A stretch of DNA of 47,144 bases, from positions 1 to 47,144 of the forward strand of contig CALXLM010000015.1 of assembly GCA_944389195.1 (NCBI GenBank), written 5' to 3'. This DNA comes from an uncultured Opitutales bacterium (GTDB lineage Bacteria; Verrucomicrobiota; Verrucomicrobiia; Opitutales; Intestinicryptomonadaceae). The notes under the pieces were generated by a model, which had not been told where the DNA came from, did not search any database, and saw only the letters and a list, made by a program, of their open reading frames with translations. Shown piece by piece: positions 11,616-28,666 of the stretch. The translations under genes and the position numbers were made by a program. How positions within the stretch are numbered: the stretch's first letter is position 1; every line of letters starts with the position of its first letter.

Positions 11616-11617
11616 GG

Positions 11618-12615: not shown

Positions 12616-15459
12616 TCAATCCGCCGACCTTACAATCTCGAAAAATACCGAAGGCTCCTTAACGAGTTTTGCCGTATCGATCTCTATCTTGGCGATACCG
12701 TCAATAATAGGCAAATACAGCTTTTCAAGGCGTTTTCCGGAAATATCAAGAGCGTATAAATCAAACTTGACACCGCTATCAACGGAAAGCTCCGCGGAAA
12801 GTTTACAAGTTCTCACACGCACCGGCAATTTGCCTTTGCTATATAAGATTTTGAGTTTCGGCGACAATTTGAAGTCAGAAGATATGTTGTCCGTATTTAG
12901 TATCAATACCATTTTCGAACTTGATGCAAGACTTTTCCCGTCAACTGAGCAAACCGCCACAGCTGCCGGAACGCTTACCGATTTTACAAACAGCCTTCCG
13001 ACGCGCTCCCCTTGTTTCAGCTGCTTTAAAACAACGGCCTCCGTCCTCGGAGTGCAAACCTTAATAAGCCCCTCTTTAAGCCGCATGGTTATTTCGCCCG
13101 TATCCGACTGGAACACCCCGTTTGCAGGATCCGAAATATTGCTCTCCGGAAGAATACCTTTTTCACGCAATAGTTTAACGTCGCCAGAAACCGTTTTAAG
13201 GCCCCCGCTTGCAGAATCGGCTACATTTCCCGAACTCGAAGCCTCAACATATCCTCCCGCCTCGAGCGACAAACGCGCCGGAGGGACATTTTTTAGCGCC
13301 CCTTTTTCGGAATCCGGGAAGGACAACGAAAAACCTGTCATAAACGCAATCTTCGACTGCTCGTATTCTATCTTCACGGCCTCTCGCCTGACGGCGTTCG
13401 AACCGTACCGCACCTCAACCCGATTTTTTGCCGGCGAAACGTCTCCCCTGTAAAACAGGCAGAAATTTAAAAATTCGTTGGCCCTGAAAACGGGCGAGTT
13501 TGCGACATTAAACGTGCTTAGCTCAGTTCTGGCCTTGTCACCTATGGCCTGGTCGTGAACGGTCAGCGCGTCGAAGTCCTGAAACGCGGCATAGGCGGGA
13601 AAAAACACGCCAGCCTCGTGTTTGTACGGATTCCAATGACGCTGTTGAAATTCAGTCACTATGAACGGCATTCCGGCCACCCGCTTTAACGCTCCGAACA
13701 AAAACCAATTTCCAAAGTACTTTTCTGAAATCCATTCTTCCTGATTGCACATTCCGCCGACATTCATCATTCCGCTTTGCGGAGCCGCATATGTGTTTAC
13801 GGCGATATATTCTCCCCATTCCAAACTCGCCTGCGTTATAAACGCCCTGGCATTGAAATTGTACTGGTGCATAGGAGCCTTAAAACCTATTTCGTCGCGG
13901 ACTACCTTTCGGCAAAATTCGCGTAGGTTGCGCGACCTTTCCAATATTATCTCGGAAAAATCCGCCGCCCCCATGTCGAAATGCGACTTGTTTGAAATGG
14001 GCCTTATTTCAGCGAAACTCGCGAAGGGTTTTTCGGGTTTCCAAGCCGCGTTTAGCGACTCTATGGATCCGTATTTTTTTTCGAGCCTGCCTCGCACGAA
14101 ATTTTCGGCATATTCCATCACGCCTTTCGAGAGCCCCTGCAAAGGATGGTATGTGAATATCATATCCAGCTCGTTAAAGCATTCTGCGGTGGCTATGGAC
14201 GGGTCGTCCTTCCACGCGAGCCCGGTGTACGGATTCACATGCAGCAGCATTTCGTGCGCAAACTTTCTCCAACTTTCGCGCGTGGCGGAGTCGCCGAATA
14301 GGAATTTTATTTTTATGTCAAACCTGTCGCCCCATTTCTGGTCCATTTCTCCGAGCAGGTGGCTTACAATCATAAGATGGGAATATACGCCCTCGCGGCC
14401 GCACGCATACAAAAAGTAGTCGTACTTGTCGATAATGTCGCTTTTGCATTTGAAGTCGGCTTCATATTCGAAAGAGCGCTCGGGCGTGCAGCGCCAACGC
14501 ACCATGTTGTATCCCTGCGCGCGGATGCGCGAAACCACGGCGTCTATTTTCTCCTTTGACGACAAAAAGTCACTAAAATTCCAAGATGGCCTCCAATTTG
14601 TGGATTTGAATTTTACGCGGACCCCCGGTTTGTTTTCAAACTCGAAGTGCCCGTACTTGGAAACAACCACCCTCCCGTATTTGCCCGCAGGCTTTTCTGT
14701 CATAAACTTCGAAACGTCAAGAGCCGATCCCTCGCGCACGAGAAGATTCGATGTGTCAACCGCTTTCCATTCGCTTTCCCTAAAATCAAAATACACTAAG
14801 GTATCTACAAACTTGGTTGAAAGCGTTATCCCGAAAATATTTATTACGCCGTTTCCGGACGGAACAATCGAAATGCTTGAAGGAATTACCCCCGACTTCC
14901 ACGGCGCAATTATGTTAAAGGAACACAAGTATAAATTTCCATTCAACAAATCCGAATTGGAAATTTTTTTGCATGAATCGAAAACACCACCGCCTACGAG
15001 CCCTATTTGACTTCCTATCTTTAGCGCGCCGCTTTTCATCGGTTTGCCATAATTATCGTAAACGACAACCTTTACCTCTCCGACATTTTCCCCGGCGGAT
15101 TTTCCGTCAATTTTTGCGTTGCATAAAAAATACACAGAAATTGCGCCTTCGTGGGTGAAATTATCGAGCGGAATCGATATCTTTTTGCCGGAATCCGCCG
15201 AACAGTCGAGCGACAACACCGATTTTCCCCCGTTTTCCGAAGGATTGACAATTTTAAAGTCGATGCCGCCGAACATTTCGACTCGCGAATTTATGCTATC
15301 CTTCCGCGCGCTCACGCCGGCATCTTTAAAAGACTTATTCGCGAATTTGGAAATATCTACATTGTAAGAATATTCTGCTTTTGCATTACAGTAAGCATAA
15401 AACAAGTTTTGACACGCAAATATAAGGAATACGGAAACAAAATATCTACATAATGACAT
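12616..15459 (-). CDS. Exported multidomain clan GH-A-like glycoside hydrolase (paralogue 1)
   Basis: 947 residues with a signal peptide (residues 1 to about 27). Residues 30-230 look like a carbohydrate-binding beta-sandwich. A TIM barrel follows (about 285-640) with the two glutamates expected of retaining clan GH-A enzymes: the acid/base Glu430 in ATAECFNELD and the nucleophile Glu603 in FIVTEFQQRHW. The C-terminal region has the FQSDTGEITM and TPRTEAV motifs found after the barrel in GH5- and beta-galactosidase-like proteins. Two longer paralogues lie at 18371-24924. It is the first gene of a four-gene operon. No SD precedes the ATG, and the promoter would start transcription at or next to it. 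The exact GH family is not clear to me; an untyped family is possible. Confidence 0.8.
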   Translation of the reverse strand: MSLCRYFVSVFLIFACQNLFYAYCNAKAEYSYNVDISKFANKSFKDAGVSARKDSINSRVEMFGGIDFKIVNPSENGGKSVLSLDCSADSGKKISIPLDNFTHEGAISVYFLCNAKIDGKSAGENVGEVKVVVYDNYGKPMKSGALKIGSQIGLVGGGVFDSCKKISNSDLLNGNLYLCSFNIIAPWKSGVIPSSISIVPSGNGVINIFGITLSTKFVDTLVYFDFRESEWKAVDTSNLLVREGSALDVSKFMTEKPAGKYGRVVVSKYGHFEFENKPGVRVKFKSTNWRPSWNFSDFLSSKEKIDAVVSRIRAQGYNMVRWRCTPERSFEYEADFKCKSDIIDKYDYFLYACGREGVYSHLMIVSHLLGEMDQKWGDRFDIKIKFLFGDSATRESWRKFAHEMLLHVNPYTGLAWKDDPSIATAECFNELDMIFTYHPLQGLSKGVMEYAENFVRGRLEKKYGSIESLNAAWKPEKPFASFAEIRPISNKSHFDMGAADFSEIILERSRNLREFCRKVVRDEIGFKAPMHQYNFNARAFITQASLEWGEYIAVNTYAAPQSGMMNVGGMCNQEEWISEKYFGNWFLFGALKRVAGMPFIVTEFQQRHWNPYKHEAGVFFPAYAAFQDFDALTVHDQAIGDKARTELSTFNVANSPVFRANEFLNFCLFYRGDVSPAKNRVEVRYGSNAVRREAVKIEYEQSKIAFMTGFSLSFPDSEKGALKNVPPARLSLEAGGYVEASSSGNVADSASGGLKTVSGDVKLLREKGILPESNISDPANGVFQSDTGEITMRLKEGLIKVCTPRTEAVVLKQLKQGERVGRLFVKSVSVPAAVAVCSVDGKSLASSSKMVLILNTDNISSDFKLSPKLKILYSKGKLPVRVRTCKLSAELSVDSGVKFDLYALDISGKRLEKLYLPIIDGIAKIEIDTAKLVKEPSVFFEIVRSAD

Positions 15460-15658: not shown

Positions 15659-16960
15659 TCAAGCCAAGCCCATTCTTTTCAACTCCCGGTGCGCAATGTC
15701 GCGTCTATAAAACGCGCCGTCAAACGAGACTTTTTTGCAAAGGGAATAGGCCTTGTCGAGAGCCTCCGTCAAGGTGTCGCCAGTTCCCGTAAGCCCGAGC
15801 ACCCTGCCTCCCGATGAAACGATATCGCTTCCGACAGACTTTGTACCCGCATGTATAACCCAAGCCCCGTCCGGAATCTCCGAATCCGAAGGAAGCGAAA
15901 TAGGTGCCCCCTTCTTATATTTTCCTGGATAGCCTTCCGAACACATGACTACGACCGCCGCAAACCCGTCTGAGATGCGAACCTTCGTGGCGTCGAGAAG
16001 CCCATTTGCTATGTCGTTAAAAATCTCCAGCGCGTCGCTTTTTATGAGCGGCAGCAAAACCTGGCATTCCGGATCGCCGAAGCGCACGTTAAATTCCACA
16101 ACTTTGGCACCGTCTTTTGTTATCATTATGCCGATATATAGCGTGCCCCTGTAATCTATTCCCTCTGCTTTTAATCCGGCAAGAGTAGGCCCGATTATAT
16201 TTTCTCGCACGTCGGACAAAACCCGCTCCGTGACGACCGCCGCCGGAGCGTACGCGCCCATTCCCCCCGTATTCAAGCCGGTGTCTCCATCGCCCACACG
16301 CTTGTGGTCCTGACTTGCGGGAAGCATTATGTATTTGTCGCCGCAAACCATGAGCATGATGCTCGCCTCTTCGCCCTCCATCTTTTCCTCTACGACAATT
16401 TCCCTGCCGCTGTCGCCAAAAACGCCGTATTCCAACATTTCACGGGCGGCTTTTACGGCCTCCTCTTTCGATTCCGGGATAACTACACCTTTTCCAGCTG
16501 CAAGGCCGCTCGCCTTTATCACGACCCCGCAAGGCGCGGCTTTAATGTATTCGGAAGCTTTTTCAAAGTCGGTAAAATTTTCGCCTCTTGCGGTGGGAAT
16601 GGAATATTTCTTTAAAAATGCCTTTGAAAACGCCTTGCTGGCCTCAAGGATGGCACCGTTTTTATTGGGCCCGTAAACGGCTATGCCCTCCCCCCTCAGC
16701 CTGTCAGCAAGCCCCATGGACAGCGGAACTTCGGGGCCGCTAATGACGAGGTCGAAACTTCCGTCCTTTGCGAAATTTACAATGCCCTCTATATCCTCAG
16801 CAGGAATACCCGCCACTTCGCAGTCGCGCGATATTCCGCCGTTTCCCGGGGCGCACACAAGGCGCCCCAACATAGGCGAATTTTTTATCGCCTTTACAAT
16901 AGCATGTTCCCTTCCGCCACCGCCGACAACAAGTACATTGAGTTTTCTTCCGTATTCCAT
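15659..16960 (-). CDS. purD: Phosphoribosylamine--glycine ligase
   Basis: 433 residues from the ATG at 16960. That start is chosen because it leaves 4 nt after the preceding stop, has AGGCGG upstream and begins the protein 12 residues before the nucleotide-binding motif. An upstream in-frame start at 16996 would overlap the permease gene. The enzyme makes glycinamide ribonucleotide from phosphoribosylamine, glycine and ATP in cytoplasmic purine synthesis. Signatures are GGGGREHAIV (13-22), PGNGG, SGPEVPLSMGLAD, the ATP-grasp loop KASGLAAGKGVV, and the region HKRVGDGDTGLNTGGMGAYAP, followed by EFNVRFGDPECQ. Length is normal for the family. It is downstream of an LptF/LptG-type permease in one transcription unit. 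Confidence 0.97.
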   Translation of the reverse strand: MEYGRKLNVLVVGGGGREHAIVKAIKNSPMLGRLVCAPGNGGISRDCEVAGIPAEDIEGIVNFAKDGSFDLVISGPEVPLSMGLADRLRGEGIAVYGPNKNGAILEASKAFSKAFLKKYSIPTARGENFTDFEKASEYIKAAPCGVVIKASGLAAGKGVVIPESKEEAVKAAREMLEYGVFGDSGREIVVEEKMEGEEASIMLMVCGDKYIMLPASQDHKRVGDGDTGLNTGGMGAYAPAAVVTERVLSDVRENIIGPTLAGLKAEGIDYRGTLYIGIMITKDGAKVVEFNVRFGDPECQVLLPLIKSDALEIFNDIANGLLDATKVRISDGFAAVVVMCSEGYPGKYKKGAPISLPSDSEIPDGAWVIHAGTKSVGSDIVSSGGRVLGLTGTGDTLTEALDKAYSLCKKVSFDGAFYRRDIAHRELKRMGLA

Positions 16961-16964
16961 AAAT

Positions 16965-18080
16965 TTAAACCGCCTTTCTGTAAAGGGAAAGCGCAAAGAC
17001 CAGCATCGCTATAATCGGCAGCGCCGCAGCCCAAAACGGAGGCAGAAACCCTCTCCCCCCAAGCGCAGCAAGAACGCTGTCCACCACAAAAAACAGGAAA
17101 AACAGGCCCACTGTTTTCGAAACCCCAACCATCGGATTCGTGCGCACCCCAGAAACCGAAAACGGAATGGCTATGGCAACCACTATAATGCACGCAAACG
17201 CGCTCGCCCAAATTGAATACCAGCGCACGATATACGGCTGGGCTTCAATCGCCGAGCTGTCGCCCAATGCGTCTATAAGAGTCTCGGTTTCGAACAGGGA
17301 CAAATCCTTCGGGCGCCGCATCGACAGTATCATGATATTCGGAAGTTCCGTAAAATCCCGGTAGTATTTTTTGTCGAAGCCTATTGCCTTTGTCGCCCTG
17401 TGCGTCTGAGGGTCGTACGTTATCTCCTGCCCGTCGGTAAAGAACCAGCAATTATCGACGTCGTCGTAAACTCCCTCGCGAGCCATAACCCTTGAAACTT
17501 CCCTTCCGGCGGAGTCGAGCACCGAAACCCTCACGCCGTTTGCCCGGCTCGCGGCGCGGCTGAAAGAGTTTGTAAACCACAAGCGGCCGTCTTTGCGGTT
17601 GTTGAAACACATGTTAACAACCTTGCCGACATCGGAGATTTTCATGCTTTCCATTTCGCGCTCGAAACGGGCGTTATCGTATATTGTGCGCGACATCTCC
17701 TTGCAATGCGGTATTAAGGAAGCGTTCAGCCAGAGCAGAAGCCCGGCTAAAACCGCGCCCGAAAACCACAGCGCTCGCGTTATTCTAAACACATTCATGC
17801 CCGCCGAACGCATGGCGGTAATTTCGTTGTTCCGGTGGAGTGCCCCTAAAACATATATGAGCGAAAGCAGCAGGCTTATTGGAAGCACAACAGGCACAAG
17901 AGTCGGAGTAAGATAGGCATAATACATAAGTATGTCGCGCGTATCTGCACCCCAATTAATAAGCGCGCCGAGATTGCCGTACATATCGTGCAGTATCAAT
18001 ATGCCGAGCGTCACACCTATGGCTATCGCAAAAATTTTCAGCCATTCAAAAAAAACATATCTGTCCAACAATTTCGGCAT
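16965..18080 (-). CDS. LptF/LptG-family lipopolysaccharide export permease
   Basis: 371 residues from the ATG at 18080, preferred over an in-frame GTG at 18092 because GGAG lies 11 nt before the ATG and directly abuts the GTG. Belongs to the YjgP/YjgQ family. The N-terminus LLDRYVFFEWLKIFAIAIG is the typical amphipathic start, followed by membrane segments near residues 15-35, 55-80 (VPVVLPISLLLSLIYVLG), 100-120 and a C-terminal trio (from about 285). Between them is a periplasmic beta-jellyroll domain. ALHRNNEITAMRSAGMNVFRI (about 83-103) is the conserved cytoplasmic loop that contacts LptB. The protein extracts LPS from the inner membrane with a partner permease not present here. It lies upstream of purD. 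Confidence 0.92.
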   Translation of the reverse strand: MPKLLDRYVFFEWLKIFAIAIGVTLGILILHDMYGNLGALINWGADTRDILMYYAYLTPTLVPVVLPISLLLSLIYVLGALHRNNEITAMRSAGMNVFRITRALWFSGAVLAGLLLWLNASLIPHCKEMSRTIYDNARFEREMESMKISDVGKVVNMCFNNRKDGRLWFTNSFSRAASRANGVRVSVLDSAGREVSRVMAREGVYDDVDNCWFFTDGQEITYDPQTHRATKAIGFDKKYYRDFTELPNIMILSMRRPKDLSLFETETLIDALGDSSAIEAQPYIVRWYSIWASAFACIIVVAIAIPFSVSGVRTNPMVGVSKTVGLFFLFFVVDSVLAALGGRGFLPPFWAAALPIIAMLVFALSLYRKAV

Positions 18081-18370
18081 ACAAAAATACACTCCGGTTA
18101 TTATTGAAAAATCCCTAAAAGAATATCAAAGAAAAAAGAAAATTTTTTATATTATACTGCGCCGCCAAAACCGCCCGGCGCCGGCAAGACTGCCCAAACC
18201 GTCCGCCGTACCGGCTTACCCCGCCATCCGGAACCCGTGAAATCCCGATGCCATCCCCCCACGTTCGCGGCGAATTTCCCGCACGGTTGTCCGAATCCAC
18301 GCAAAAGCTACTTTCGTTCAGCGGTTAAATTTTATTGCAATGCGCGCCAAGAAAAAATATGCACTGAGAA
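18081..18370. other. Divergent intergenic region
   Basis: 290 nt between the permease gene and the tandem hydrolases. A TATAAT hexamer for the minus strand lies at the complement of 18151-18156 but has no clear -35. The rest is GC-rich without a supported gene. Confidence 0.4.
18335..18363 (+). promoter_or_regulatory. Candidate promoter of the tandem hydrolases, probably leaderless
   Basis: TTGCAA (18335-18340), a 17-nt spacer and TATGCA (18358-18363). The expected start is at about 18370, next to the ATG at 18371, which has no SD. The boxes are weaker than in the other promoters listed. Confidence 0.38.
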
Positions 18371-21300
18371 ATGAAGAGGAGTATTACGATTTCATTGTTT
18401 CTTGCGTCCGTTTTTGCGACATGCGCGGGTGCGTCTGAAGTTATGCGCGCGGTAATCGCCATCACGGGAAGCAAGCCTTTTGAAATAACACGTTCAGAAA
18501 ACGCCGACGTTAAAATCGAGAGGAAAGACATAGGGAGGGGCGAACGCACATACGCTGTCTTTTCCATTCCGATAGAAAAGGACTCGTGGACAAAAGTAAG
18601 TCTTGGGGGCGTTTCAAAATCCGACCAGGAACTCTATATAACCATACAGCCAGAATACTCCGTATATAGGCGTGCCGCATATTTTGACGACATAGCCGTA
18701 AACGGCGAAAACATCAAAAACGGGGGCTTCGAAAACGGCATGGAGGGCTGGGCGCTTTACGGCGACCCGAACATATACCAAGCCGCGGCGGTTCCTAAAG
18801 CCGCGGCGGGGAAGCCGTTCCCGAACGGAAAATTTTGCGCGCGAATATCGCCGACAAATCCCGTGCAGACTAAATTTTCTGTCGAGGCCGGCAAAAATTT
18901 CGACCTTACCGCCATGTGCCGCGACGCCGGCGCCCTCGGAGAATGCCGCAATTTCTTTTTCCTCGACATTCCTGAAACGCCGGCCGATACGGACGTTGCA
19001 TTAACCGATAAGTTCTCATTCGCGCCTCCGCCGCGCGAAATTGCCGGCGTAAAATTAGCCCCTGCAAAAAAGCCGCTAATACTTTCTAAAAGCCGCTCGC
19101 GTTCCTTAAAGATTCCGGAAACGTCTTTCGGAAGATTTATCTACGTTCTGAGTTCCTCAAACAGAGGCGCAAATTCAAGCGCGGGAACGTTAGTCATAAG
19201 GTTCCCCGAGGGAAAGTCAACAACGTTTCCCATAGTATCCGGAACGTTCACCGGATTTGTCGGGGAAAAATCCCAAACGCGCTTTTGCCGCGCCGTTGAC
19301 TGCGGAGGAAAATTCTACTATCTGACGCGCTTCGACATCGCGGAAGGCTCGGAATATCCGGTAGAACTCGAATTCAAGGCGTCTCCAGGAAGCGCCTTGT
19401 CTATTGCGGCCGCCACGCTTTCCCCCGTAAAAATAGACCCGTCGCCCGATTTCGTTCCCGGCCCCCCCGAATGGCTGCCCGCCGATGTCGGAGACGCCGT
19501 CGTAAAAGAGGGAACAATTCTCGACCTCTCAAAAACGGTCAAACCCAACGCAGGCTCTAAAGGGCGCATAATAGTAAACAAACGCGGAAAATTCGCCTTT
19601 GAAGGGGAACCTGAAAAATCGCTGAGGTTTCACGCATGCATGACAACCTTTCCGGAATTGGCTGAAAACAATATCTCCGACCTCGACAAGGCTAAAAAAT
19701 CCATAAGAAAGCGCATCGCCGAACTGAAGCGCGGGGGATACAACCTGATGAGAGTATGGGGGCTTGGGCTTCCATTCAACCCGACTGACAAATACGGGGA
19801 AAAATCCCGCTTGGCCTTCGACTTCATGCTGGAGGAGTTCCGACGGCAAGGCATTTATATAGACCTTATGCTCCCGATACCGTTCCCCAAAAATAATAAG
19901 GGATATTCAATAGAGGGGTCCCACGTCCTAAAAACCAGGCTCCTGTTCGGAGACAAAGAGCTGCTCGACGAATGGGCGAGGGTCACGCTGAAAATTCTCA
20001 ACCACAAGAATTCAATATCAGGGATACGGATAAAAGACGACCCAGTCATTTTGACACTGGAATACATAAACGAAATAGGCCTGGGGCCTCAAATGGTTAT
20101 AAACCGCGGCGGGAAGGACGCGGAATCGGCTTTGGTACCCTGGCGCAAATGGCTGAAGGAAAAATTTAAAGACATAGGCGCACTTAACAGCGCATGGAAA
20201 ACGTCATTTAAAGACTTCTCTGAAATCTCTGAAAAGTACACCTTATACAAGCCGGAATGGCGCTCATTCATAATCGAAAACGGGCGCAGATTCCATAAAT
20301 TCTGCGAGAAAACCATGCGCGACGCGGGATATCGCGGCCTGGTAAACGAGTATAATTTCTCGCCCGAATTCGCCTTCTCCGCGCTGCGCGCCGACGGCTC
20401 CGACTATGTTGCGAAAAATACATATTTCGCACACCCGTTTTACGAGCGCGAAAGAGTGAAGGGGTGGAGCGACAACAACGGAGCATCAATGCAGCAGAAA
20501 AGTTCCCTGTCTGAGACGGTCCAGCATTTCCGGCGCATCGCGCAGACGAAAATGTCCGACCGCCCCATGATCATGACGGAATACAAGCACTGTTTCTGGA
20601 ACGTCCACCAATACGAGGACGGCCTGGCTTTCCCGGCCTACGCCGCCCTTCAGGATTTCTCTGCGATATGCACGTTCATAAGGAGCATGGAATCCGGGAA
20701 AAACCCTATCGGATCGTTTACCACCGGCAACAATCCGGTAGCCGTGGCCAACGAAATAATGGCTTATTGCTTTTTCGGCCGCGGCGACGTCAGCCCGGCA
20801 AAGGGCTCTGTGGAGCTCGTTCTGACGGACAATTTTCTGAAAAACGCCTCCGGATACCACCGCTCCATAAGCGGCCAGCAAAGCCGCATACCGCTGTTAA
20901 CCGGATTTTCCGTGTCATTTCCTGATATCCCGAAACGAGACTCCCTAAAAGGCGTCTCCCCATCAAAACCAGACATTAGAATAAATCCCGAAGGCTATTC
21001 CTCCATAAAGGCCAACGACTGGTTCGCCGAAACCATAGAGGGCGCCGACGGGAACTTCAAGCTGAAGGACTTTGCCGCTCTGCTTAAATCTAAAGGCATA
21101 TTCGACCGCGGCAACGCCACCGATACCGACCGCGAAATATACCAGAGCGACACCGGGCAAATAAAACTCGACGTCAAGCGCAAAAAGATGTCGGTTTCCA
21201 CGCCGAAAAGCCAAGCCGTGGCGCTTACGGCGGGCGACTCGGAAAGCCTCGAAAACATCGAGGTCAAATCCACAACCGCCAACGCTGCCGTAGCACTGTG

Positions 21301-21631
21301 CGCAATGGACGGCAAAAAGATATCCGAAAGCTCCTCGCTTATCCTCATATATTCAACCTCGGCTCTAAACAGCGGCATGAGGCTGTCGGAAGACATGACA
21401 TACGCAAAGCACATCGGGAAGGCGCCCGCCCTGATAAGGACGGGCCGCCTCAGCGCCTCTTTAAAGCTCAAGCCCGGCGCGAAATTCCGCATTTACCCGC
21501 TCTCGTTGACGGGCGAACGGCGCGCGCCGCTGGAGCTTATCCAAACCCAGTCTGGAAGCGCCGACATTGAAATAGACCTTTCGAAATTGCCAAACGGCCC
21601 GACAACCCTTTTCGAAATATCGGAAATCTAA
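18371..21631 (+). CDS. Exported multidomain clan GH-A-like glycoside hydrolase (paralogue 2)
   Basis: 1086 residues with a signal peptide (MKRSITISLFLASVFATCAGA). The N-terminal 350 residues include a carbohydrate-binding-like beta-sandwich with a GGFENGMEGWALYG motif (118-131), typical of discoidin/CBM modules. A TIM barrel (about 415-770) carries acid/base Glu568 in LTLEYINEIG and nucleophile Glu737 in MIMTEYKHCFW. The C-terminal part repeats the family pattern YQSDTGQIKLD, TPKSQAV and VALCAMDGK. It is the closest neighbour of paralogue 3, which starts 29 nt downstream on the same strand, and shares the whole layout with it. Paralogue 1 is shorter at the N-terminus. Probably periplasmic or secreted; the substrate is unknown. 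Confidence 0.8.
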   Translation: MKRSITISLFLASVFATCAGASEVMRAVIAITGSKPFEITRSENADVKIERKDIGRGERTYAVFSIPIEKDSWTKVSLGGVSKSDQELYITIQPEYSVYRRAAYFDDIAVNGENIKNGGFENGMEGWALYGDPNIYQAAAVPKAAAGKPFPNGKFCARISPTNPVQTKFSVEAGKNFDLTAMCRDAGALGECRNFFFLDIPETPADTDVALTDKFSFAPPPREIAGVKLAPAKKPLILSKSRSRSLKIPETSFGRFIYVLSSSNRGANSSAGTLVIRFPEGKSTTFPIVSGTFTGFVGEKSQTRFCRAVDCGGKFYYLTRFDIAEGSEYPVELEFKASPGSALSIAAATLSPVKIDPSPDFVPGPPEWLPADVGDAVVKEGTILDLSKTVKPNAGSKGRIIVNKRGKFAFEGEPEKSLRFHACMTTFPELAENNISDLDKAKKSIRKRIAELKRGGYNLMRVWGLGLPFNPTDKYGEKSRLAFDFMLEEFRRQGIYIDLMLPIPFPKNNKGYSIEGSHVLKTRLLFGDKELLDEWARVTLKILNHKNSISGIRIKDDPVILTLEYINEIGLGPQMVINRGGKDAESALVPWRKWLKEKFKDIGALNSAWKTSFKDFSEISEKYTLYKPEWRSFIIENGRRFHKFCEKTMRDAGYRGLVNEYNFSPEFAFSALRADGSDYVAKNTYFAHPFYERERVKGWSDNNGASMQQKSSLSETVQHFRRIAQTKMSDRPMIMTEYKHCFWNVHQYEDGLAFPAYAALQDFSAICTFIRSMESGKNPIGSFTTGNNPVAVANEIMAYCFFGRGDVSPAKGSVELVLTDNFLKNASGYHRSISGQQSRIPLLTGFSVSFPDIPKRDSLKGVSPSKPDIRINPEGYSSIKANDWFAETIEGADGNFKLKDFAALLKSKGIFDRGNATDTDREIYQSDTGQIKLDVKRKKMSVSTPKSQAVALTAGDSESLENIEVKSTTANAAVALCAMDGKKISESSSLILIYSTSALNSGMRLSEDMTYAKHIGKAPALIRTGRLSASLKLKPGAKFRIYPLSLTGERRAPLELIQTQSGSADIEIDLSKLPNGPTTLFEISEI

Positions 21632-21660
21632 ACAACCAACAGCATACATACACTGCCGAA

Positions 21661-24600
21661 ATGATCCCGTTGTCACCAATAAAAAAGGGTGCGGCAATAG
21701 CTGCAACACTGGTTGCCGCTGCGCAGATTTGCCTCGCGGCCGAAACGCCGTACAAAGCCGAAATCCTCATATCCGGCCCCGGAGAATTAAAGACCGAATC
21801 AGGCGACTCGGAACTTCAGCTCACAAAGCCGTCATGGAAGAAGAAGTCCGAATGGGGCAGATACGACCTTGTGATAGCCCCCGCTCCCGTCGGGGAATGG
21901 CGCCGCGTTGAGGTTTTCGTGACAAGCCCGTCGGAACAGACTATAATCCTTTCGCTCCAAGCGGAGCGGAAAAAAGGCGCCGGTGTCTTTTTCGACACGG
22001 TAGAAGTCGACGGAAAGCCCATATTGAACGGAGATTTTTCAAACGGGTTTCAATATTGGATACGCTATTCCGACAATAAAAACGACTATCCGTTCATAGT
22101 GGAGTCCGACAGATTGCCTCATACCGCCCCTGCCTGCGCGTACACGACCTACAAAAACGCCATCCAGACGCGCTTTAAGATTCCCGCAAACAAGCGCGTA
22201 AAAGTGGCGCTGTCATGCCGCTCCGTCGAGCACGGAAAGGACAAGCTTCCGCCGTTTTCGCTGGATATTTCAAGCGCGGCGGCGCAGGCCTCCGCAAAGG
22301 GCAAAAAAGCTGCCATAAAAGATTCGGACCTCCGACTTCCCGACGAGATAAGAGGCATAAAGCTCAAGTCTCCCGAAACCCCGCTTCTTCTTTCAAACGG
22401 AAAAAGCGCTGAAATAAAACTGGATGACGATACGTTCGGAAAATTTCTATATGTTTTGCATGCGTATGTGGGGAACTCGAAAGGAAGGGTGTATGCCGGC
22501 AAGGTAGTCGTCAGGTACGCAAACGGCACATTCCAGACATTCAACGCAATATCGGGCGATTCCATCGGAAAATTCTCGGAGGAAACCGCCTCGCAAACTG
22601 AAGTGGTCAAAGCAGCCGGAGGTTTTTTCTACCTTGCGCAATACAGGTTGAAGGAAAACAGGGGGCGCGTAAAAAGCGTCGAATTTTCAAGCAACAGGGG
22701 AAGGACGTACGCGGTTCTCGCCTCCACGCTCGACACGCAAAACGTCATATTGGGCAAAACCTTCTCGCCTTCAGAAAAAGAATGGAAACCGTACGACATC
22801 GGCGACATGCAAATCTCGAAGGGCTCGATACTCGACTTGTCAAGAGGCCGGAAACAATTCGACATTGAAAAAAACGGCAGGCTGACAATCAACAAAAACG
22901 GGGGCTTCGCCTTTGAAAATTTCCCCGGCGAAAACGTCGTGCTGCACTCCTCGATGACGACGATAAACGACATGCGCGGAGACTGGGGAAACGACGTCGA
23001 AAAAGCGAAGAGAAACATAGACGAATATGTGGAAAAATTCAAACGAGGAGGATATCAGATGATTCGTCTGGCGGGCGTGACAAATATACCGCTACTGCTG
23101 AACACCGACGAAAAAACGCGCGAAAAGCTCGCAGATACCGCCGATTACGCCATAGCCGCGTTAAAGAAGAACGGCATCTACATAAACCTTACAATGCCGT
23201 CGTACAACATAGGGCTCCCCAACTTTTACTGGGACGACCGCGACGCGGTAAAGTTTAAGCTTTTTACAATGTCGCCAGACGCCGCCGAGTCTTGGGGAAA
23301 AGTGGTTCGAAAAATCTTAAACCGCAAGAACCGGTATACCGGATTCAAGCTCAAGGACGAAAAGGCCATTGCGAGCCTCGAATACGTCAACGAAATAGAG
23401 CTCGGCCCCGAAAGGGCGTTCTGGAACACGCCGTGGAGCAGACCTTACGGAGAGAAAATCTTCAGAAAATGGCTGTCGGAGAAGTACACCGACATCGCCG
23501 CGCTGAACAAAGCATGGAAAAGCCGCTACAAGTCGTTCGGCGAAATAACATGGAAAGACTTCCCGGGAAAACTCGACTGGTCCCTGTTCTTGCGCGAATG
23601 CGGAAGAAAGTTCGGGTCATTCTGCGAAAACCTGTTTAAGGAGGAAGGCTACGGCGGGCTCGTAATGCAGTTCAACGTCATGGGGAATTACACATTCGGA
23701 AACCTGCGCGCCGAATATTCCGATTTTGTAGGCATGAACACGTATTTCTGCCACCCGAGCGATTTTTACAATATCGGTTCCAAATGCCTTCAAATCAGTT
23801 CCATACCCGGACTCGCCGCCTACTGGCGCGGCATATCCGCAACGCGCATAACCGGGCGCCCCATGATAATGACGGAATTTAAGCACGTATTCTGGAACAG
23901 GCACCAATACGAAGGCGGGCTCGTCTTTCCGGCGTATTCCGCGCTTCAAAATTTCTCCGCACTCGAATCTTTCGTAAGGCAAAAAGACGACAAAATAACA
24001 ATATTGGAACCTTTTTTGATTGGCAACAACCCGATATGCCGCGCATCGGAAATATTGTCGTACTGTTTCTTTGCCCGCAGGGACGTAAAAGAGTCGGAAC
24101 ACCTTGTAGAGCTGCGCATCGACGAAGACTTCATCTCCAAAAACCCGAACGCAGCTTACGCTCCCAACAGCGAACAGACAAAAATAGCGCTTCTTACAGG
24201 GTTTGCAGTGGACTATCCGGACGCGAAAAAACGCGCCGCTTTAAAAGATGTAAAGCCGCGAACCCCGGACATCGTCATCAGCCCGGTCGGCTATTCCTCG
24301 ATAGAAAGCCACGACTGGTTCACAAAGGTAAACGAGGGCAAAGACGCAAAATTCGATTTGAAAAAATTTACCGAAGAGCTGCGCGAAAAGAAAATACTCC
24401 CTCCCGGAAATATTACCGACGTCGATAAAGGCATATTCCAGAGCGACACGGGCCAGATAACCATGATGCGCGACAGATGCCTTATGAAGGTGGTCACGCC
24501 CAAAAGCGAGGCAGTGGCCATGCTGGCGGGGGACGCAGAAAAGCTCGGGGCGCTGGAAGTCGAATCGCTTTCTGAAAACGCAACCGTGGCCGTGTGCGCC

Positions 24601-24924
24601 ATGGATGGGAAGAACGTGGCGGACAGCTCGTCCATGGTTTTCATATTTTCGACGCGCGCAATAAACAGCGGCATGATGCTTTCATTCGACCAGACCACCC
24701 TATTCAACAAGGGCAAACTTCCAATATTGATGAAGCTCGGGAAGCTCAAAGCCTCGCTCAAGGTAGAAAAGGGCGCGAAATATTCCATATACCCCCTTTG
24801 CATAAACGGCATAAGGAGAGAAAAAATACCGTGCCAAAACAGGGACGGCGTTTTGGAAATATCAATAGACCTCGCGGCCCTTCCCAACGGCCCCACGCCT
24901 CTATTCGAAATTGCAAAAGAATAA
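21661..24924 (+). CDS. Exported multidomain clan GH-A-like glycoside hydrolase (paralogue 3)
   Basis: 1087 residues with a signal peptide (residues 1 to about 27, cleaved near LAAE). The layout matches paralogue 2: an N-terminal beta-sandwich with NGDFSNGFQYWIRY (123-136), then a TIM barrel with acid/base Glu578 in ASLEYVNEIE and nucleophile Glu739 in MIMTEFKHVFW. The C-terminal region contains FQSDTGQITMM and TPKSEAVAM. No SD is visible upstream of the ATG; the 29-nt gap to paralogue 2 suggests cotranscription. The two are probably an old tandem duplication that has diverged, since the barrels differ well outside the active-site motifs and may accept different linkages. The gene ends directly at a strong terminator. 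Confidence 0.8.
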   Translation: MIPLSPIKKGAAIAATLVAAAQICLAAETPYKAEILISGPGELKTESGDSELQLTKPSWKKKSEWGRYDLVIAPAPVGEWRRVEVFVTSPSEQTIILSLQAERKKGAGVFFDTVEVDGKPILNGDFSNGFQYWIRYSDNKNDYPFIVESDRLPHTAPACAYTTYKNAIQTRFKIPANKRVKVALSCRSVEHGKDKLPPFSLDISSAAAQASAKGKKAAIKDSDLRLPDEIRGIKLKSPETPLLLSNGKSAEIKLDDDTFGKFLYVLHAYVGNSKGRVYAGKVVVRYANGTFQTFNAISGDSIGKFSEETASQTEVVKAAGGFFYLAQYRLKENRGRVKSVEFSSNRGRTYAVLASTLDTQNVILGKTFSPSEKEWKPYDIGDMQISKGSILDLSRGRKQFDIEKNGRLTINKNGGFAFENFPGENVVLHSSMTTINDMRGDWGNDVEKAKRNIDEYVEKFKRGGYQMIRLAGVTNIPLLLNTDEKTREKLADTADYAIAALKKNGIYINLTMPSYNIGLPNFYWDDRDAVKFKLFTMSPDAAESWGKVVRKILNRKNRYTGFKLKDEKAIASLEYVNEIELGPERAFWNTPWSRPYGEKIFRKWLSEKYTDIAALNKAWKSRYKSFGEITWKDFPGKLDWSLFLRECGRKFGSFCENLFKEEGYGGLVMQFNVMGNYTFGNLRAEYSDFVGMNTYFCHPSDFYNIGSKCLQISSIPGLAAYWRGISATRITGRPMIMTEFKHVFWNRHQYEGGLVFPAYSALQNFSALESFVRQKDDKITILEPFLIGNNPICRASEILSYCFFARRDVKESEHLVELRIDEDFISKNPNAAYAPNSEQTKIALLTGFAVDYPDAKKRAALKDVKPRTPDIVISPVGYSSIESHDWFTKVNEGKDAKFDLKKFTEELREKKILPPGNITDVDKGIFQSDTGQITMMRDRCLMKVVTPKSEAVAMLAGDAEKLGALEVESLSENATVAVCAMDGKNVADSSSMVFIFSTRAINSGMMLSFDQTTLFNKGKLPILMKLGKLKASLKVEKGAKYSIYPLCINGIRREKIPCQNRDGVLEISIDLAALPNGPTPLFEIAKE

Positions 24925-24959
24925 AAAAAGGCGGACGCCCTTTAACGTCCGCCTTTTTT
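24924..24959. terminator. Bidirectional terminator between convergent operons
   Basis: GGCGGACG (24930-24937) and CGTCCGCC (24946-24953) form an 8-bp stem with A runs before and T runs after. It therefore serves the plus-strand hydrolases, whose stop codon abuts it, and the minus-strand gene ending at 24995. Confidence 0.92.
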
Positions 24960-24994
24960 AAGCTCTCCGTGCAAAAATTCCGGCGCGCAACAGG

Positions 24995-25831
24995 TCAATT
25001 TTGGCGCAGATATTTTATGCTCCTGCGCATGGTTTCCGTGGGATCATTCATCACGTTTTCGTTTTCCAAAACGAGATAGCCGTCGTATCCCATGTCGTCG
25101 AGAGTCTTCAGGGCGCTTTTAACGTCGAGGCTTCCCTCTCCTATGGCCATCGCGCGCTTTTCGGGCATGAGAATGTCCTTGAAGTGTATGGCGACGAACT
25201 TGCCCCGGAGAACCCGGTATCCCCAAGGGGTGTCGAGTCCAGAAACGGTCCAATGCCCGTTGTCCGCGCACGCATAGAGGCGCTTATTGTCCTTTATGAT
25301 ATTCCACACGTTTTCCGGGTTCCAATATATGTAATCGAACTTTGTTTTTGTGCCCTTTTTGTGGTTGTGTATCGCCACGATTATATCGTATTTTTCCGCG
25401 GCTTCAGCCCATTTGCCAATCCTTTCGGGATTGCCCTCCCATGTAAAGACGGGTATTCCCATCTCCTTGCAGAACGGCAAATACACATCGGGCGACTCGT
25501 TCTTCGAATCCCATATGCCGTATGAGACAAATTCGATTCCGTTGTCGGCAAATAGTTTTTTGACAAACTCCTTTTGCTCCGCCGTCATTTTCGGGGAGAA
25601 TTTCGCGTCGCCGAACCTCTTTGCTATTTTTTGCGTTCCGGAGCACACAACGCCGTCCGCACCGAGAGCCTTCGCTTCGACGACGGTTTCCTCGAGAGTC
25701 TTCACTTTCGAATATACATAGCCGTGCAGCGCTATCTTGCGGTACTTGCCTGCGCCGGCATTTTGCTGGTCTGAAACGCAACCTGATACGAGAACGCACG
25801 CGACCAATAACGACAATATTTCCCTTAACAT
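24995..25831 (-). CDS. Lipoprotein sugar isomerase/epimerase-like TIM barrel
   Basis: 278 residues. The N-terminus ends in a lipobox-like LVSGC (Cys18), so the protein is probably membrane-anchored outside the cytoplasm. The remainder fits the xylose-isomerase-like TIM barrel (PF01261), with candidate metal ligands and active-site residues in AIHNHKKGTK, CADNGHWTVSG, AIHFKD and the final strand YLVLENEN. AAGG lies upstream of the ATG. It follows the Gfo/Idh/MocA gene by 47 nt in the same operon. Most members of this fold act on cytosolic sugars, but exported versions are paired with oxidoreductases in glycoside elimination pathways. A role as epimerase or lyase on an oxidised sugar is inferred. 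Confidence 0.8.
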   Translation of the reverse strand: MLREILSLLVACVLVSGCVSDQQNAGAGKYRKIALHGYVYSKVKTLEETVVEAKALGADGVVCSGTQKIAKRFGDAKFSPKMTAEQKEFVKKLFADNGIEFVSYGIWDSKNESPDVYLPFCKEMGIPVFTWEGNPERIGKWAEAAEKYDIIVAIHNHKKGTKTKFDYIYWNPENVWNIIKDNKRLYACADNGHWTVSGLDTPWGYRVLRGKFVAIHFKDILMPEKRAMAIGEGSLDVKSALKTLDDMGYDGYLVLENENVMNDPTETMRRSIKYLRQN

Positions 25832-25878
25832 AATATGATACCTTTTTTGTGTTGACTGTTTTTTTAATCAAGTCCTGT

Positions 25879-27315
25879 TCAGTACCATCCGGGACGCATC
25901 GGGGAGGAAATGTACGAATTCATTTTCGCCGATCCACCCTCGGCCTTCATCGACTTGGCGTTCCAGACCACATTTTCTCCGGTGCGGAGCGTCAAATTGC
26001 CCAAAAGCACGACTTCGGTGAGCCTTGCGATGTCGGAAAAATTCGACACGCTTTTGGGAATGTCTCCGCGCACGGCCTCCACAAAATTAAGGCGGTGGTC
26101 GCCGTATTTCACGCGCGGAAGAGTCGCGGGAATCGCCTTGGCAACGGCGTTCTTATTTTTCGGAAGGACGATAGGCTTACCCATGAGGTGCATTTTCGGA
26201 GAGTACAGCACGCCCTCGTCGCCGATTATAAACATGCCGTCCGCGGTGGAAAGATCCTTATAGCTTCTTCCGGTGTCGGTATATTCTTTGGGAAGCGGAG
26301 GCAAAAATGACTTGTCGTATCCTGAAGGCCATTCGCCGCTTTTATCTGGCTTCAGGAAACCGCTAAACCAGTGTATTTCCACCTTTTCGCCTTGGTTGCT
26401 GTCATCAAAATAGTATGTGATATGGTCCTGCCTCGGAACGGATATCTCCGTCCCGCCCGTCTGCCTCGACGTTATCTTCGACGGATAATCGAGATTCAAC
26501 GCATATATAGGAACGTCCAACATATGCGTGCCTATATCGCCGAGAGCTCCCGTGCCGTATTTATAAACGCGCCTCCAATTAAGCGGGACAATCTCGCTCG
26601 AATAAGGCCCGTACTCGGCTACGTTAAGCCATTTATCCCAATCGAGAGTCGGAGGAACCGGTTCCGACGGCCATTCTTTGTATCCCATCGTGGGCCTGTT
26701 GCATCCGCCAAGGGGGCGAGTAGTCCAAATTACGACCTTTTTTACCTTGCCTATTAGTCCGGCGGCAATCCATTCCCTCGTTATTCTTATTCCGTCGCCC
26801 GAACGGACCATATTGCCCATTTGCGTCGCCAAACCCTTCTGTTCGGCAAACCTCGTAAGCTCCCTAATCTGACTGATGTTATGGCAAAGGGGCTTTTCAA
26901 GATAAATTGGATACCCGTGTTTTAGCGCGGCCATTGCCGGAGCGAAATGGCAATGGTCGGGAGTTGAAATCAGGACAGCGTCCAACTTGCCGCGCATTTT
27001 ATCGAACATCTCCCGATAGTCCACAAATGACGCAGCGCCGGTATCGACGTATTTTCGAGCGTTCCCAAAGCCGTAGGAGCCTGTATCTACATCGCAATAA
27101 GCCACAAGGCGTTGCCCAAGCCCCTTCATTATTTTCATGTTCGCCCCGCCCATAAGGCCGCACCCCACAAACCCTATGCGTATTGGATCCTTTTCATACG
27201 GCTCCAATCCTTTCGGCTTTTTACCCGGCTCCGCGCCGAAAGACATGTAGGGAACAGAAATGGACGCCAAACCGAGCTTTCCAATATCGCCCAAAAATTT
27301 TCTTCTCGAACTCAT
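25879..27315 (-). CDS. Tat-exported Gfo/Idh/MocA family oxidoreductase
   Basis: 478 residues from the ATG at 27315; an in-frame GTG at 27324 is possible but less likely. The N-terminus MSSRRKFLGDIGKLGLAS is a classic twin-arginine signal, so folded export with a tightly bound cofactor is expected. The NAD(P)-binding Rossmann motif is GFVGCGLMGG (near 45-54). The family motif EKPLCHN, with its conserved Lys, follows VLISTPDHCHFAPAMAAL. The C-terminal half forms the open beta-sheet domain that binds the sugar (HMLDVPIYALN, GTGALGDIGTH). Family members oxidise or reduce sugar hydroxyls; glucose-fructose oxidoreductase is the best known exported case. It heads an operon with a TIM-barrel lipoprotein. 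Confidence 0.88.
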   Translation of the reverse strand: MSSRRKFLGDIGKLGLASISVPYMSFGAEPGKKPKGLEPYEKDPIRIGFVGCGLMGGANMKIMKGLGQRLVAYCDVDTGSYGFGNARKYVDTGAASFVDYREMFDKMRGKLDAVLISTPDHCHFAPAMAALKHGYPIYLEKPLCHNISQIRELTRFAEQKGLATQMGNMVRSGDGIRITREWIAAGLIGKVKKVVIWTTRPLGGCNRPTMGYKEWPSEPVPPTLDWDKWLNVAEYGPYSSEIVPLNWRRVYKYGTGALGDIGTHMLDVPIYALNLDYPSKITSRQTGGTEISVPRQDHITYYFDDSNQGEKVEIHWFSGFLKPDKSGEWPSGYDKSFLPPLPKEYTDTGRSYKDLSTADGMFIIGDEGVLYSPKMHLMGKPIVLPKNKNAVAKAIPATLPRVKYGDHRLNFVEAVRGDIPKSVSNFSDIARLTEVVLLGNLTLRTGENVVWNAKSMKAEGGSAKMNSYISSPMRPGWY

Positions 27316-27360
27316 ATCCAACACTACAATATATTAACGAATGAAATACAATCTTTACGG

Positions 27361-27370
27361 ACAATATTGT
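27361..27370. repeat. Perfect palindrome in the leader of the oxidoreductase gene
   Basis: ACAATATTGT is a 10-bp perfect palindrome about 20-30 nt downstream of the predicted transcription start and 45 nt before the start codon. It could be an operator. AT-richness makes chance occurrence possible. Confidence 0.3.
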
Positions 27371-27395
27371 TATATCTCGTAAAATCGATTTGATT

Positions 27396-27424
27396 TATGT
27401 ATGACAAGGATTGGCCCATGTCAA
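27396..27424 (-). promoter_or_regulatory. Near-consensus promoter of the oxidoreductase/isomerase operon
   Basis: On the minus strand TTGACA (complement of 27419-27424), a 17-nt spacer and TACATA (complement of 27396-27401). The predicted leader is about 75 nt. Confidence 0.65.
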
Positions 27425-27474
27425 CAAAAATTGCGAACGGCAACTTTTGCAGCCATGGCAAGTGAAAATCCTAC

Positions 27475-27502
27475 AAAAACCGCCGTGAGAGAAACAGCGG
27501 CG
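27475..27502 (-). terminator. Likely terminator of the ECF sigma operon
   Basis: On the minus strand CGCCG and CGGCG (complement of 27498-27502 and 27481-27485) form a short stem followed by GTTTTTG. It is 50 nt past the stop of the anti-sigma-like gene. The stem is short. Confidence 0.45.
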
Positions 27503-27553
27503 CTAAAAAATACTGGCGAACAACCTGAAAAAATAAAATCCAATTAAACGCGC

Positions 27554-28012
27554 CTAAAACACGTTCCCTCCAAATCCACCTCCGATGCTACTGGAAACAT
27601 ACCTTACAGGATTTGAATCGGACGAATTTATATTGGCCGATACAAGAGTCTGTTCGTCGAACTCGGAAACAGGCAATTCGTTTATAGCAAAAGATTTTTC
27701 TATATTGGGCAGATGCGACGGCGCAAATTCCGCGTCTTGCCTTGAAAGATCCGTTTCGGAAGAAAACGAAGCAATAAATGTCGGAGCCACAGCTATTGCC
27801 AAAACGGCTCCGAGAATGCCCAAAGCCGAAGAGTACACGGCGAAAGTGCGCGAAAAAACGCCATCAAAAAACCGCTTGCTGTACGGTTCCCCGACGATTT
27901 CGCGCACGAGCCTTCTCTTCAACTCGGCGTCGAAACGTTCCCAATCAGAATTAGACGGACGCTCAGCCCGTTTGAGCTTCAGCAAGTCTTCAAGTTTAAT
28001 TTTCTGCGGCAT
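27554..28012 (-). CDS. Single-pass membrane protein, probable anti-sigma partner
   Basis: 152 residues. The N-terminal 55 or so residues are charged and soluble (LEDLLKLKRAERPSNSDWERFDAELKRRL). One membrane segment follows at about 61-84 (SSALGILGAVLAIAVAPTFIA), then an Asp/Ser/Asn-rich tail of about 65 residues that ends in a Gly-rich stretch (SSSIGGGFGGNVF). This cytoplasmic-TM-extracytoplasmic plan, and a start 3 nt after the stop of the ECF sigma gene, are those of an anti-sigma factor. No zinc-binding HxxxCxxC anti-sigma motif is seen, so the role is inferred from position and topology only. Confidence 0.65.
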   Translation of the reverse strand: MPQKIKLEDLLKLKRAERPSNSDWERFDAELKRRLVREIVGEPYSKRFFDGVFSRTFAVYSSALGILGAVLAIAVAPTFIASFSSETDLSRQDAEFAPSHLPNIEKSFAINELPVSEFDEQTLVSANINSSDSNPVRYVSSSIGGGFGGNVF

Positions 28013-28015
28013 TAC

Positions 28016-28666
28016 TTATTTCAAATAGTCTTTTAAATACGCCCTAAGCTGCTGCTTTGCATAGTGCAAACGCGTTCTTACGGTGGCTTCGCTGGCGTTT
28101 GTGATTTCAGCAATTTCCTGATGGCTCAAGCCTTCAATCTCGAACAAAACCACAACCGTCCTATGTTTTATAGACAAAGTTTGGAGGGCTTCGTTCAATT
28201 TTTCCTTCAATTCGTTCAAAATGAGTTTTCTTGGAGCTCCGCAATTTTCCGACAGCTTTTCTACGATGTCGGGCGCCGCAAGCTCCTCGTCGGAATTGTC
28301 GAGGCTGAAGAAGCGCCTAAACCTGGCGCGCTTTAAAAAGGTAATGGACTTGTTTACGGCTATCCTATAAAGCCACGTATAAAAGGCCGACTTGCCCTTA
28401 AACGACCCTATTGCAGAAAACGCCTTGATAAAAGAGTCCTGCACTACGTCCATTGCATCTTCCCGGTTTGAGAGCATGTTGTATACGACCCCGTACAGCC
28501 TTTCCCTGTACTTCTTTGTGAGCGCGTCGAACGCCGCCATGTCGCCAGCCTTGACGCGTTCGACCAAAGCGATGTCCACATCCGGCGAATCCGCCTTCCC
28601 TGCCGAAGCGGAAAAGCCCACGCCGACGCCTGTATTAATCGCAGCCACCAAATCCGATACTTTCAA
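28016..28666 (-). CDS. ECF-family RNA polymerase sigma factor
   Basis: 216 residues. Region 2 runs from about 37 (ALVERVKAGDMAAFDALTKKYRERLYGVVYNML) through DVVQDSFIKAFSAIGSF and FYTWLYRIAVNKSITFLKR. Region 4 covers about 150-210 (LNEALQTLSIKHRTVVVLFEIEGLSHQEIAEI, then SEATVRTRLHYAKQQLR). The sigma-70 regions 1 and 3 are absent, as in ECF factors. The start is uncertain: the longest frame begins at a TTG at 28666, whereas a GTG about 26 codons later has an AAGGCGG upstream. The anti-sigma-like gene is coupled downstream. What it controls is not visible; no autoregulatory promoter motif could be identified. Confidence 0.9.
   Translation of the reverse strand: MKVSDLVAAINTGVGVGFSASAGKADSPDVDIALVERVKAGDMAAFDALTKKYRERLYGVVYNMLSNREDAMDVVQDSFIKAFSAIGSFKGKSAFYTWLYRIAVNKSITFLKRARFRRFFSLDNSDEELAAPDIVEKLSENCGAPRKLILNELKEKLNEALQTLSIKHRTVVVLFEIEGLSHQEIAEITNASEATVRTRLHYAKQQLRAYLKDYLK

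Follow-up and report, generated by a model that had tools for sequence, protein, structure and literature searches.

A predicted exported oxidoreductase and TIM-barrel lipoprotein pair for oxidative glycoside cleavage in an Opitutales bacterium

Two adjacent genes in a 47,144-nucleotide stretch of DNA from an uncultured Opitutales bacterium (the window; contig 15 of a 2.37-Mb genome that is 96% complete) encode an oxidoreductase of the Gfo/Idh/MocA (Gfo) family with a twin-arginine translocation (Tat) signal and a lipoprotein with a TIM-barrel fold, here referred to as the TIM protein. We propose that this pair forms a small exported module that cleaves glycosides by oxidation and then elimination, without a classical hydrolase, and we put the probability of this reading at a little under 60%. 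An earlier note on this DNA had suggested that an exported pair might act in this way, and, judged from sequence, it is the reading that the kinship of the oxidoreductase and the residues of the TIM protein best support.

The gene pair and its export signals

Both genes lie on the minus strand, with the oxidoreductase gene first and a gap of 47 bp before the TIM gene (Table 1). The open reading frame (ORF) of the oxidoreductase covers positions 25879 to 27324, with an ATG at 27315, and the N-terminus of the protein, MSSRRKFLGD, carries a twin-arginine (RR) signal of the form SRRxFL (SRRKFL in the window), while the TIM protein begins with a lipoprotein-type signal ending in LVSGC; both signals were read by eye. 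TatC is encoded in the host genome. Since all nine oxidoreductase orthologs have the RR signal and all ten aligned TIM sequences have Cys18, the window being included in both counts, these signals appear to go beyond chance. The oxidoreductase matches the Pfam families PF01408 (57.1 bits) and PF19051 (48.6 bits), both above their cut-offs, and the TIM protein matches PF01261, the xylose-isomerase-like TIM barrel (76.5 bits). The description in the earlier note of a Tat-exported Gfo oxidoreductase next to a lipoprotein TIM barrel is thus borne out.

Nineteen genomes of the family were searched, 14 of which (the window's own included) belong to the genus. Orthologs of the oxidoreductase were found in nine of the 14 at 54 to 83% identity, the line being drawn at an identity gap below which the next matches reach 42% or less. 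A TIM relative adjoins the oxidoreductase in six of these nine genomes, in the order Gfo-TIM in our own genome, G017, G007, G014, and G006 and in the order TIM-Gfo in G008, which argues that the pairing goes beyond chance. Eight ortholog stretches of 9 to 20 kb, that of G014 being a 9.3-kb contig, were compared with the window. G017 retains window neighbors on both sides of the pair, including one GH42-like gene and the ortholog of the gene at 12616-15459; G011 retains the orthologs of 15659-16996 and 16965-18092, with a DUF6528 protein and no TIM protein beside the Gfo protein; and in G013 the only relative of a window neighbor, besides Gfo proteins, is a distant paralog of one regulator gene. 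At an E value of 1e-6, no relative of a window neighbor turned up in the stretches of G007, G014, G006, G008, and G010. As adjacency is kept in six of nine genomes amid mostly different surroundings, the pair itself seems to be the unit, its two genes usually remaining together as the particular hydrolase neighbors change. A fixed tie to the hydrolases of the window was set aside because the flanks differ among the eight stretches. Among the five other genomes with an adjacent pair, the tie holds to the extent that G017 has a GH42-like gene and that G006 has a GH32-type protein, unlike the window neighbors, directly after the TIM gene, but not in G007, G014, and G008, the other genes of which were only partly scanned. 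Eight named records contain the oxidoreductase at 51 to 83% identity; five are titled Opitutales, and the others are titled Puniceicoccaceae, Verrucomicrobiaceae, and Verrucomicrobiota. These titles suggest a host of the Opitutales type, and assemblies of this sort would probably come from the gut.

A third gene stands beside the pair on the same strand in G014 (442 amino acids [aa]; L079:6573-7901) and G008 (437 aa; L081:7930-9243). Its two products are 41% alike and have no Pfam match, and in G008 a gene for an AraC-type regulator lies upstream (L081:11740-12669).

Regarding transcription, the near-consensus promoter of the earlier note was not recovered, as a consensus scan of positions 24900 to 27560 revealed no promoter-like site on the minus strand upstream of the oxidoreductase start. 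A perfect TTGACA is present at 27424-27419, and the hexamer 17 bp further on, TACATA, has only three of six matches. The region contains six promoter-like sites versus 3.4 (standard deviation, 1.8) in shuffles, and its terminator-like sites (Table 1) are no commoner than in shuffles (3 versus 3.7). The hairpin 3' of the TIM gene is palindromic and hence may also serve the convergent plus-strand gene that ends at 24924.

Kinship of the oxidoreductase

The top NCBIfam match of the oxidoreductase is NF058561, the glycoside 3-dehydrogenase family BT_2158_fam, with 258.7 bits against 58.2 bits for the next family. The match covers positions 1 to 428 of the 487 in the profile, and the protein combines the twin-arginine signal with a whole-length Gfo fold. 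Its top sequence matches in the PDB are 8tdf and 8tdh (181 and 180 bits), which are titled Alistipes sp. glucoside-3-dehydrogenase AL3, and AL3 scores 220 bits by profile, compared with 55 bits for DgpA. The same two entries are the best fold matches of an AlphaFold model that was built from nine orthologs and has a mean predicted local distance difference test score (pLDDT) of 77, with Z scores of 36.1 (8tdh) and 36.0 (8tdf) over 386 to 388 residues; the next match trails by 8 Z units, and DgpA1 reaches a Z score of 28.0. The protein contains the NAD motif G51/G53/G56, and all 25 aligned sequences (nine orthologs, nine true BT_2158 members, and seven paralogs from the same genome) retain K141, D260, and H264; we take the motif and these three residues to have the roles that they play in the active sites of the Gfo family. 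With BT2158 and AL3, the protein thus shares an RR-type signal, a Gfo fold over most of its length, and the same lysine, aspartate, and histidine residues. By its sequence it is a relative of the BT_2158 family rather than an equivalog, and we predict it to be a glycoside 3-dehydrogenase that is exported and belongs to the BT2158/AL3 family in the wider sense.

A search of our own genome with BT_2158_fam gave 20 matches, none over the cut-off, with the window oxidoreductase in 8th place (253.8 bits). Eight proteins of this genome are of the BT_2158-like kind, with scores of 254 to 371 bits, and that of the window is the lowest.

The fold matches also include single-protein NAD-dependent glycoside hydrolases of the Gfo fold (8qc8 and 8qc3; Z scores of about 27), and the oxidoreductase alone could accordingly be a complete oxidoreductive glycosidase, similar to GH109 enzymes or sulfoquinovosidases, with the TIM protein acting on something else. 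We consider this very unlikely: both structures fall far below AL3 (Z score, 36), none of the 49 PDB matches at an E value of 0.001 is a chain named GH109 (no GH109 sequence was compared directly), and the conserved pairing with a TIM protein would argue for two steps.

An exported 3-keto-glycoside route is known, the study by Nasseri et al. in 2024 reportedly being the main paper on it. BT2158 is called a periplasmic glycoside 3-dehydrogenase (PMC11300592), the products of its operon are given as a sugar phosphate isomerase, a glycosyl hydrolase, and two oxidoreductases (PMC10734470), and the conversion of glucosinolates in vitro is said to require BT2158 plus either BT2156 or BT2157 (review PMC12385236). 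In addition, a periplasmic hydrolase of 3-keto-lactose with a DUF1080 domain has been proposed (excerpt of PMC9007349). The window pair resembles the BT2158 system in its predicted location outside the cytoplasm (PMC11300592) and in the combination with a protein of the sugar phosphate isomerase kind (PMC10734470). It differs in that the window oxidoreductase falls below the equivalog cut-off and the pair has no DUF1080 gene. Thus, the earlier note was not borne out in regarding an exported redox route as unusual, since the excerpts of PMC11300592, PMC12385236, and PMC10734470 already describe the BT2158 system and an RR is found near the N-terminus in nine of nine BT_2158-family members whose neighborhoods were examined. 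A further known system is the Lgd levoglucosan pathway (LgdA/B1/B2/C), which in the excerpt of PMC7676230 proceeds by oxidation, elimination, hydration, and reduction and includes two isomerase-annotated proteins; on the window oxidoreductase, the model for levoglucosan dehydrogenase reaches just 45 bits (cut-off, 650 bits).

The TIM barrel and its candidate metal site

A profile of ten TIM sequences matched the PDB entries 3p6l (175 bits), 4kw2 (125 bits), and 3lmz (87 bits), followed by the epimerase-like 3wqo (45 bits), AtOGE (8bvk; 43 bits), an IolE protein (39 bits), DgpB (25 bits), and YcjR (22 bits). A single-sequence search with the window TIM protein in a collection of genome contigs gave no match. 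The structural model (mean pLDDT, 87.7) has 3p6l as its top fold match, with a Z score of 33.0, and other fold matches are DgpB-C (23.8) and D-psicose and D-tagatose 3-epimerases (about 24 to 25).

AtOGE from Agrobacterium is a Mn-dependent 3-keto-O-beta-glucoside eliminase. Excerpts of PMC10628242 name H132, D163, H189, and E233 as its Mn ligands, E233 being a weak one, and H134 as its catalytic residue, with the H134A variant devoid of activity. In a hidden Markov model alignment to 8BVK, residues H155, H157, D190, H216, and E256 of the TIM protein correspond to H132, H134, D163, H189, and E233 of AtOGE, and none of the five varies among the ten aligned sequences. The putative ligands of the TIM protein are therefore H155, D190, H216, and E256, with the candidate catalytic histidine, H157, placed two residues past the first ligand. 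As these invariant residues match AtOGE, elimination or hydration would be favored over epimerization, and we predict that the TIM protein is a Mn-dependent 3-keto-glycoside eliminase or hydratase. AtOGE and the TIM protein share the fold and the five residues but are only distantly related by profile, and their settings differ: the window TIM protein carries a lipoprotein signal and is paired with a Gfo protein, while a flavoenzyme oxidizes C3 in the AtOGE pathway according to the excerpts of PMC10628242.

The TIM protein might be a hydratase instead. In the excerpts of PMC7676230 and PMC10628242, one of the two "sugar phosphate isomerase" proteins is a likely hydratase in two pathways (LgdB2 and AtHYD), and LgdB2 appeared to perform both elimination and hydration; since the same carbons are used in both steps, the H-x-H arrangement may not separate them. 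We nonetheless regard a hydratase as unlikely. The residue match that was found is to the eliminase AtOGE, the comparison having been made with AtOGE and not with AtHYD or LgdB2, and no separate candidate eliminase was seen directly beside the pair.

An exported sugar or cyclitol epimerase, in which the Gfo protein would make a 3-keto sugar or keto-inositol, the TIM protein would epimerize it, and the Gfo protein would reduce it again, appears less probable still. In its favor, epimerases and isomerases are common in proteins of the PF01261 fold, the two 3-epimerases mentioned above are among the fold matches, YcjR, a 3-keto-glucoside 4-epimerase, appears in the profile matches, and 3wqo is level with AtOGE, so that residues alone, not overall similarity, point to AtOGE. 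Against this reading, Glu-Asn of 3wqo aligns, as we see it, with His155-Asn of the window protein, and a glutamate presumably also occupies the His155 position in D-tagatose 3-epimerase and YcjR. Among the 14 other PF01261 matches of our own genome, seven likewise have Glu there, unlike the window TIM protein, while four have H-x-H (L028, L031, L032, and L033), one has Y-N-H, and two have H-P-D, the alignment being rough for distant members. Moreover, the oxidoreductases closest to that of the window are named for glycosides.

In the DgpA system for C-glycoside deglycosylation, which is cytosolic, oxidation by a Gfo enzyme is followed by elimination by a TIM-barrel protein, and the earlier note had used it as its comparison. 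The folds are indeed shared, but both window proteins are more distant from DgpA and DgpB in sequence than from AL3 and 3p6l, and DgpA/DgpB was rejected as the closest system, sequence and fold favoring AL3/BT2158 for the oxidoreductase and 3p6l for the TIM protein. Furthermore, DgpB/C and DfgA/B are heterodimeric and have Glu as the first metal ligand (excerpts of PMC10628242), whereas the window protein has His at this position and no second-subunit gene lies beside its gene, which sets it apart from C-glycoside eliminases.

Two further arrangements of TIM proteins were observed. Four successive matches to the window TIM protein lie in one frame at G001:C21:1746-4853 (1,054 aa) and G002:C41:1736-4852 (1,056 aa), apparently as four tandem TIM barrels. 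On contig 28 of our own genome, three neighboring TIM proteins of the same type, at least one of them with a lipoprotein-like signal, are encoded on one strand (L091:4039-7521), and an acetyl xylan esterase-like gene is present at 11039-12352 of this contig.

Proposed route, distribution, and genomic setting

In the proposed oxidation-elimination route, the oxidoreductase would fold with NAD(H) in the cytoplasm, be exported by the Tat system, and oxidize C3 of the sugar at the nonreducing end of a glycoside to yield a 3-keto sugar. The lipoprotein TIM barrel, with bound Mn and His157, would then take the proton at C2 and expel the aglycone or the next sugar, leaving a 2-hydroxy-3-keto-glycal; alternatively, the TIM protein might hydrate that glycal. 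Hydration could be performed by the same TIM protein or by one of six proteins with the 3-keto-disaccharide hydrolase domain DUF1080 (PF06439), all of which are encoded on other contigs of the genome, and NADH retained on the oxidoreductase may reduce the 3-keto sugar again. A bolder version, which we offer as speculative and rather doubtful, is that cleavage outside the cytoplasm is closed for its cofactor with two proteins only, a Tat-exported dehydrogenase that retains NAD(H) together with an AtOGE-like eliminase, anchored in the membrane, that performs hydration as well, without DUF1080, and that this arrangement evolved separately in Opitutales for a glycoside unused by the published Bacteroides enzymes.

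Several observations weigh against oxidation and elimination by this pair. The score of the oxidoreductase does not reach the BT_2158_fam equivalog cut-off of 750 bits, and its identity to nine true BT_2158 members is 31 to 37%. In a tree of 60 rows (30 of them yielded by 35 loci entered from the 71 distant Gfo loci described below), the window clade is separated from the BT_2158 clade by a fully supported branch and has a long stem (1.09 changes per column) without a resolved sister group. Together, the low score, the identity, and the long separate stem suggest that the substrate or the regiochemistry may differ. The oxidoreductase model has a pLDDT of <50 at residues 221 to 256, near the active site. 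On the side of the TIM protein, the titles of 3p6l, 4kw2, and 3lmz give only putative names with no tested function, and AtOGE does not score above 3wqo. Within the genus, no TIM gene adjoins three of the nine orthologs (G010, G011, and G013), and G009 has no match to either protein of the pair. In addition, an excerpt of PMC11501099 reports that BT2157 and BT2158 of Bacteroides thetaiotaomicron are dispensable for growth on raffinose-family sugars.

The known loci add to this list. The class to which a Lewinella genome (G019, from L146) belongs was represented by 395 genomes, and seven of these have, at nine loci, true BT_2158 members over the cut-off. A DUF1080-like protein, called by similarity to the DUF1080 proteins of our own genome and confirmed by Pfam for L203 only, is found in eight of these nine neighborhoods (adjacent in seven and one gene away in one), whereas no DUF1080 gene stands beside the window pair, its neighbors at 18371-24924 and 27554-28666 having other or no Pfam matches. 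A TIM protein matching the window profile occurs in only two of the nine, L196 and L203. The gene order of L196 resembles, by our reading, BT2159-BT2156, and its TIM protein scores only 33 bits compared with 190.5 bits for that of L203. The order in L203 is DUF1080, BT_2158 member (850 bits, over the cut-off), and exported TIM protein, and by this order and the TIM score L203 directly parallels the window pair in a different phylum, the Bacteroidota. The genes beside this trio are, judging by size and N-terminus, presumably SusC and SusD. Among 71 distant Gfo loci from named records (L105-L175, reaching up to 8 kb to each side; the eight loci L097-L104, which hold orthologs themselves, were excluded), only two contain a TIM protein; the first scores just 16 bits, and the second, in L155, comes from an assembly in which the ortholog L102 is also present. 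The idea that Gfo relatives generally pair with this type of TIM protein was therefore set aside. A DUF1080-like protein is found in 11 of the 71, among which L172 and L173 agree in length and gene positions and are apparently one stretch and L175 is without a Gfo protein over the threshold.

Two other loci combine Gfo and DUF1080 sequences. On contig 26 of our own genome, a 729-aa DUF1080 protein with HEAT repeats adjoins a Gfo protein with an RR signal (L089:4324-7838) and is with it a second candidate oxidation-cleavage pair. In L171 (Phycisphaerae; JAHDQI010000356.1), a single ORF of about 819 codons at 7848-10307 matches both the Gfo profile and the DUF1080 queries, apparently fusing the oxidation step with the hydrolase step.

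Of the five glycan hydrolases that the earlier note had placed nearby, the MGH1-like and GH130/GH32-like proteins and, marginally, two GH42-like proteins were recovered, but the GH99 match of the WbsX protein lies below the cut-off (Table 1). The product of 12616-15459 has no Pfam match. In a row with the MGH1-like hydrolase and GH130/GH32-like protein genes stands a minus-strand gene (6874-9972) for a 1,032-aa protein with an RR-type N-terminus and an FAD-dependent oxidoreductase domain (PF12831, 170 bits). At 27554-28666 on the minus strand, just upstream of the pair, lies a gene for an extracytoplasmic function (ECF) sigma factor; the small gene that comes after it has no Pfam match and may encode its anti-sigma factor.

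Table 1. Positions of the gene pair and other features in the window
Feature	Position	Strand	Basis or remark
Tat-signal Gfo/Idh/MocA oxidoreductase, 478 aa	25879..27315	minus	PF01408, PF19051, NF058561, AL3 fold match
Lipoprotein TIM barrel (AP_endonuc_2 fold), 278 aa	24995..25831	minus	PF01261, AtOGE residue alignment
Terminator-like hairpin 3' of TIM gene	24924..24959	minus	16-bp stem, consensus match only
Terminator-like site between upstream gene 27554-28012 and pair	27479..27501	minus	Weak, 8-bp stem, consensus match only
GH42-like protein	18371-21631		Pfam, 21.8 bits, marginal (cut-off 21)
GH42-like protein	21661-24924		Pfam, 24.3 bits, marginal (cut-off 21)
MGH1-like GH (glycoside hydrolase)	10020-11615		Pfam
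GH130/GH32-like protein	11618-12580		Pfam
WbsX protein	1140-2354		GH99 match below cut-off

In summary, the exported oxidation route of gut Bacteroides has been published, and the window pair looks like a lineage-specific version of it; as far as literature searches not aimed at Opitutales show, the new elements are this lineage-specific pairing, an oxidoreductase score under the family cut-off, a TIM protein with eliminase-type residues, and the lack of an adjacent DUF1080 gene. If the predicted activities hold, the exported route of oxidation and elimination, published for Bacteroidota, would extend to Verrucomicrobiota of the Opitutales type. The pair also suggests which of the many anonymous Gfo proteins with RR signals and lipoprotein "sugar isomerases" in this lineage may form working pairs, and it offers a residue rule by which H-x-H at strand 5 would mark eliminase or hydratase candidates as opposed to epimerases.

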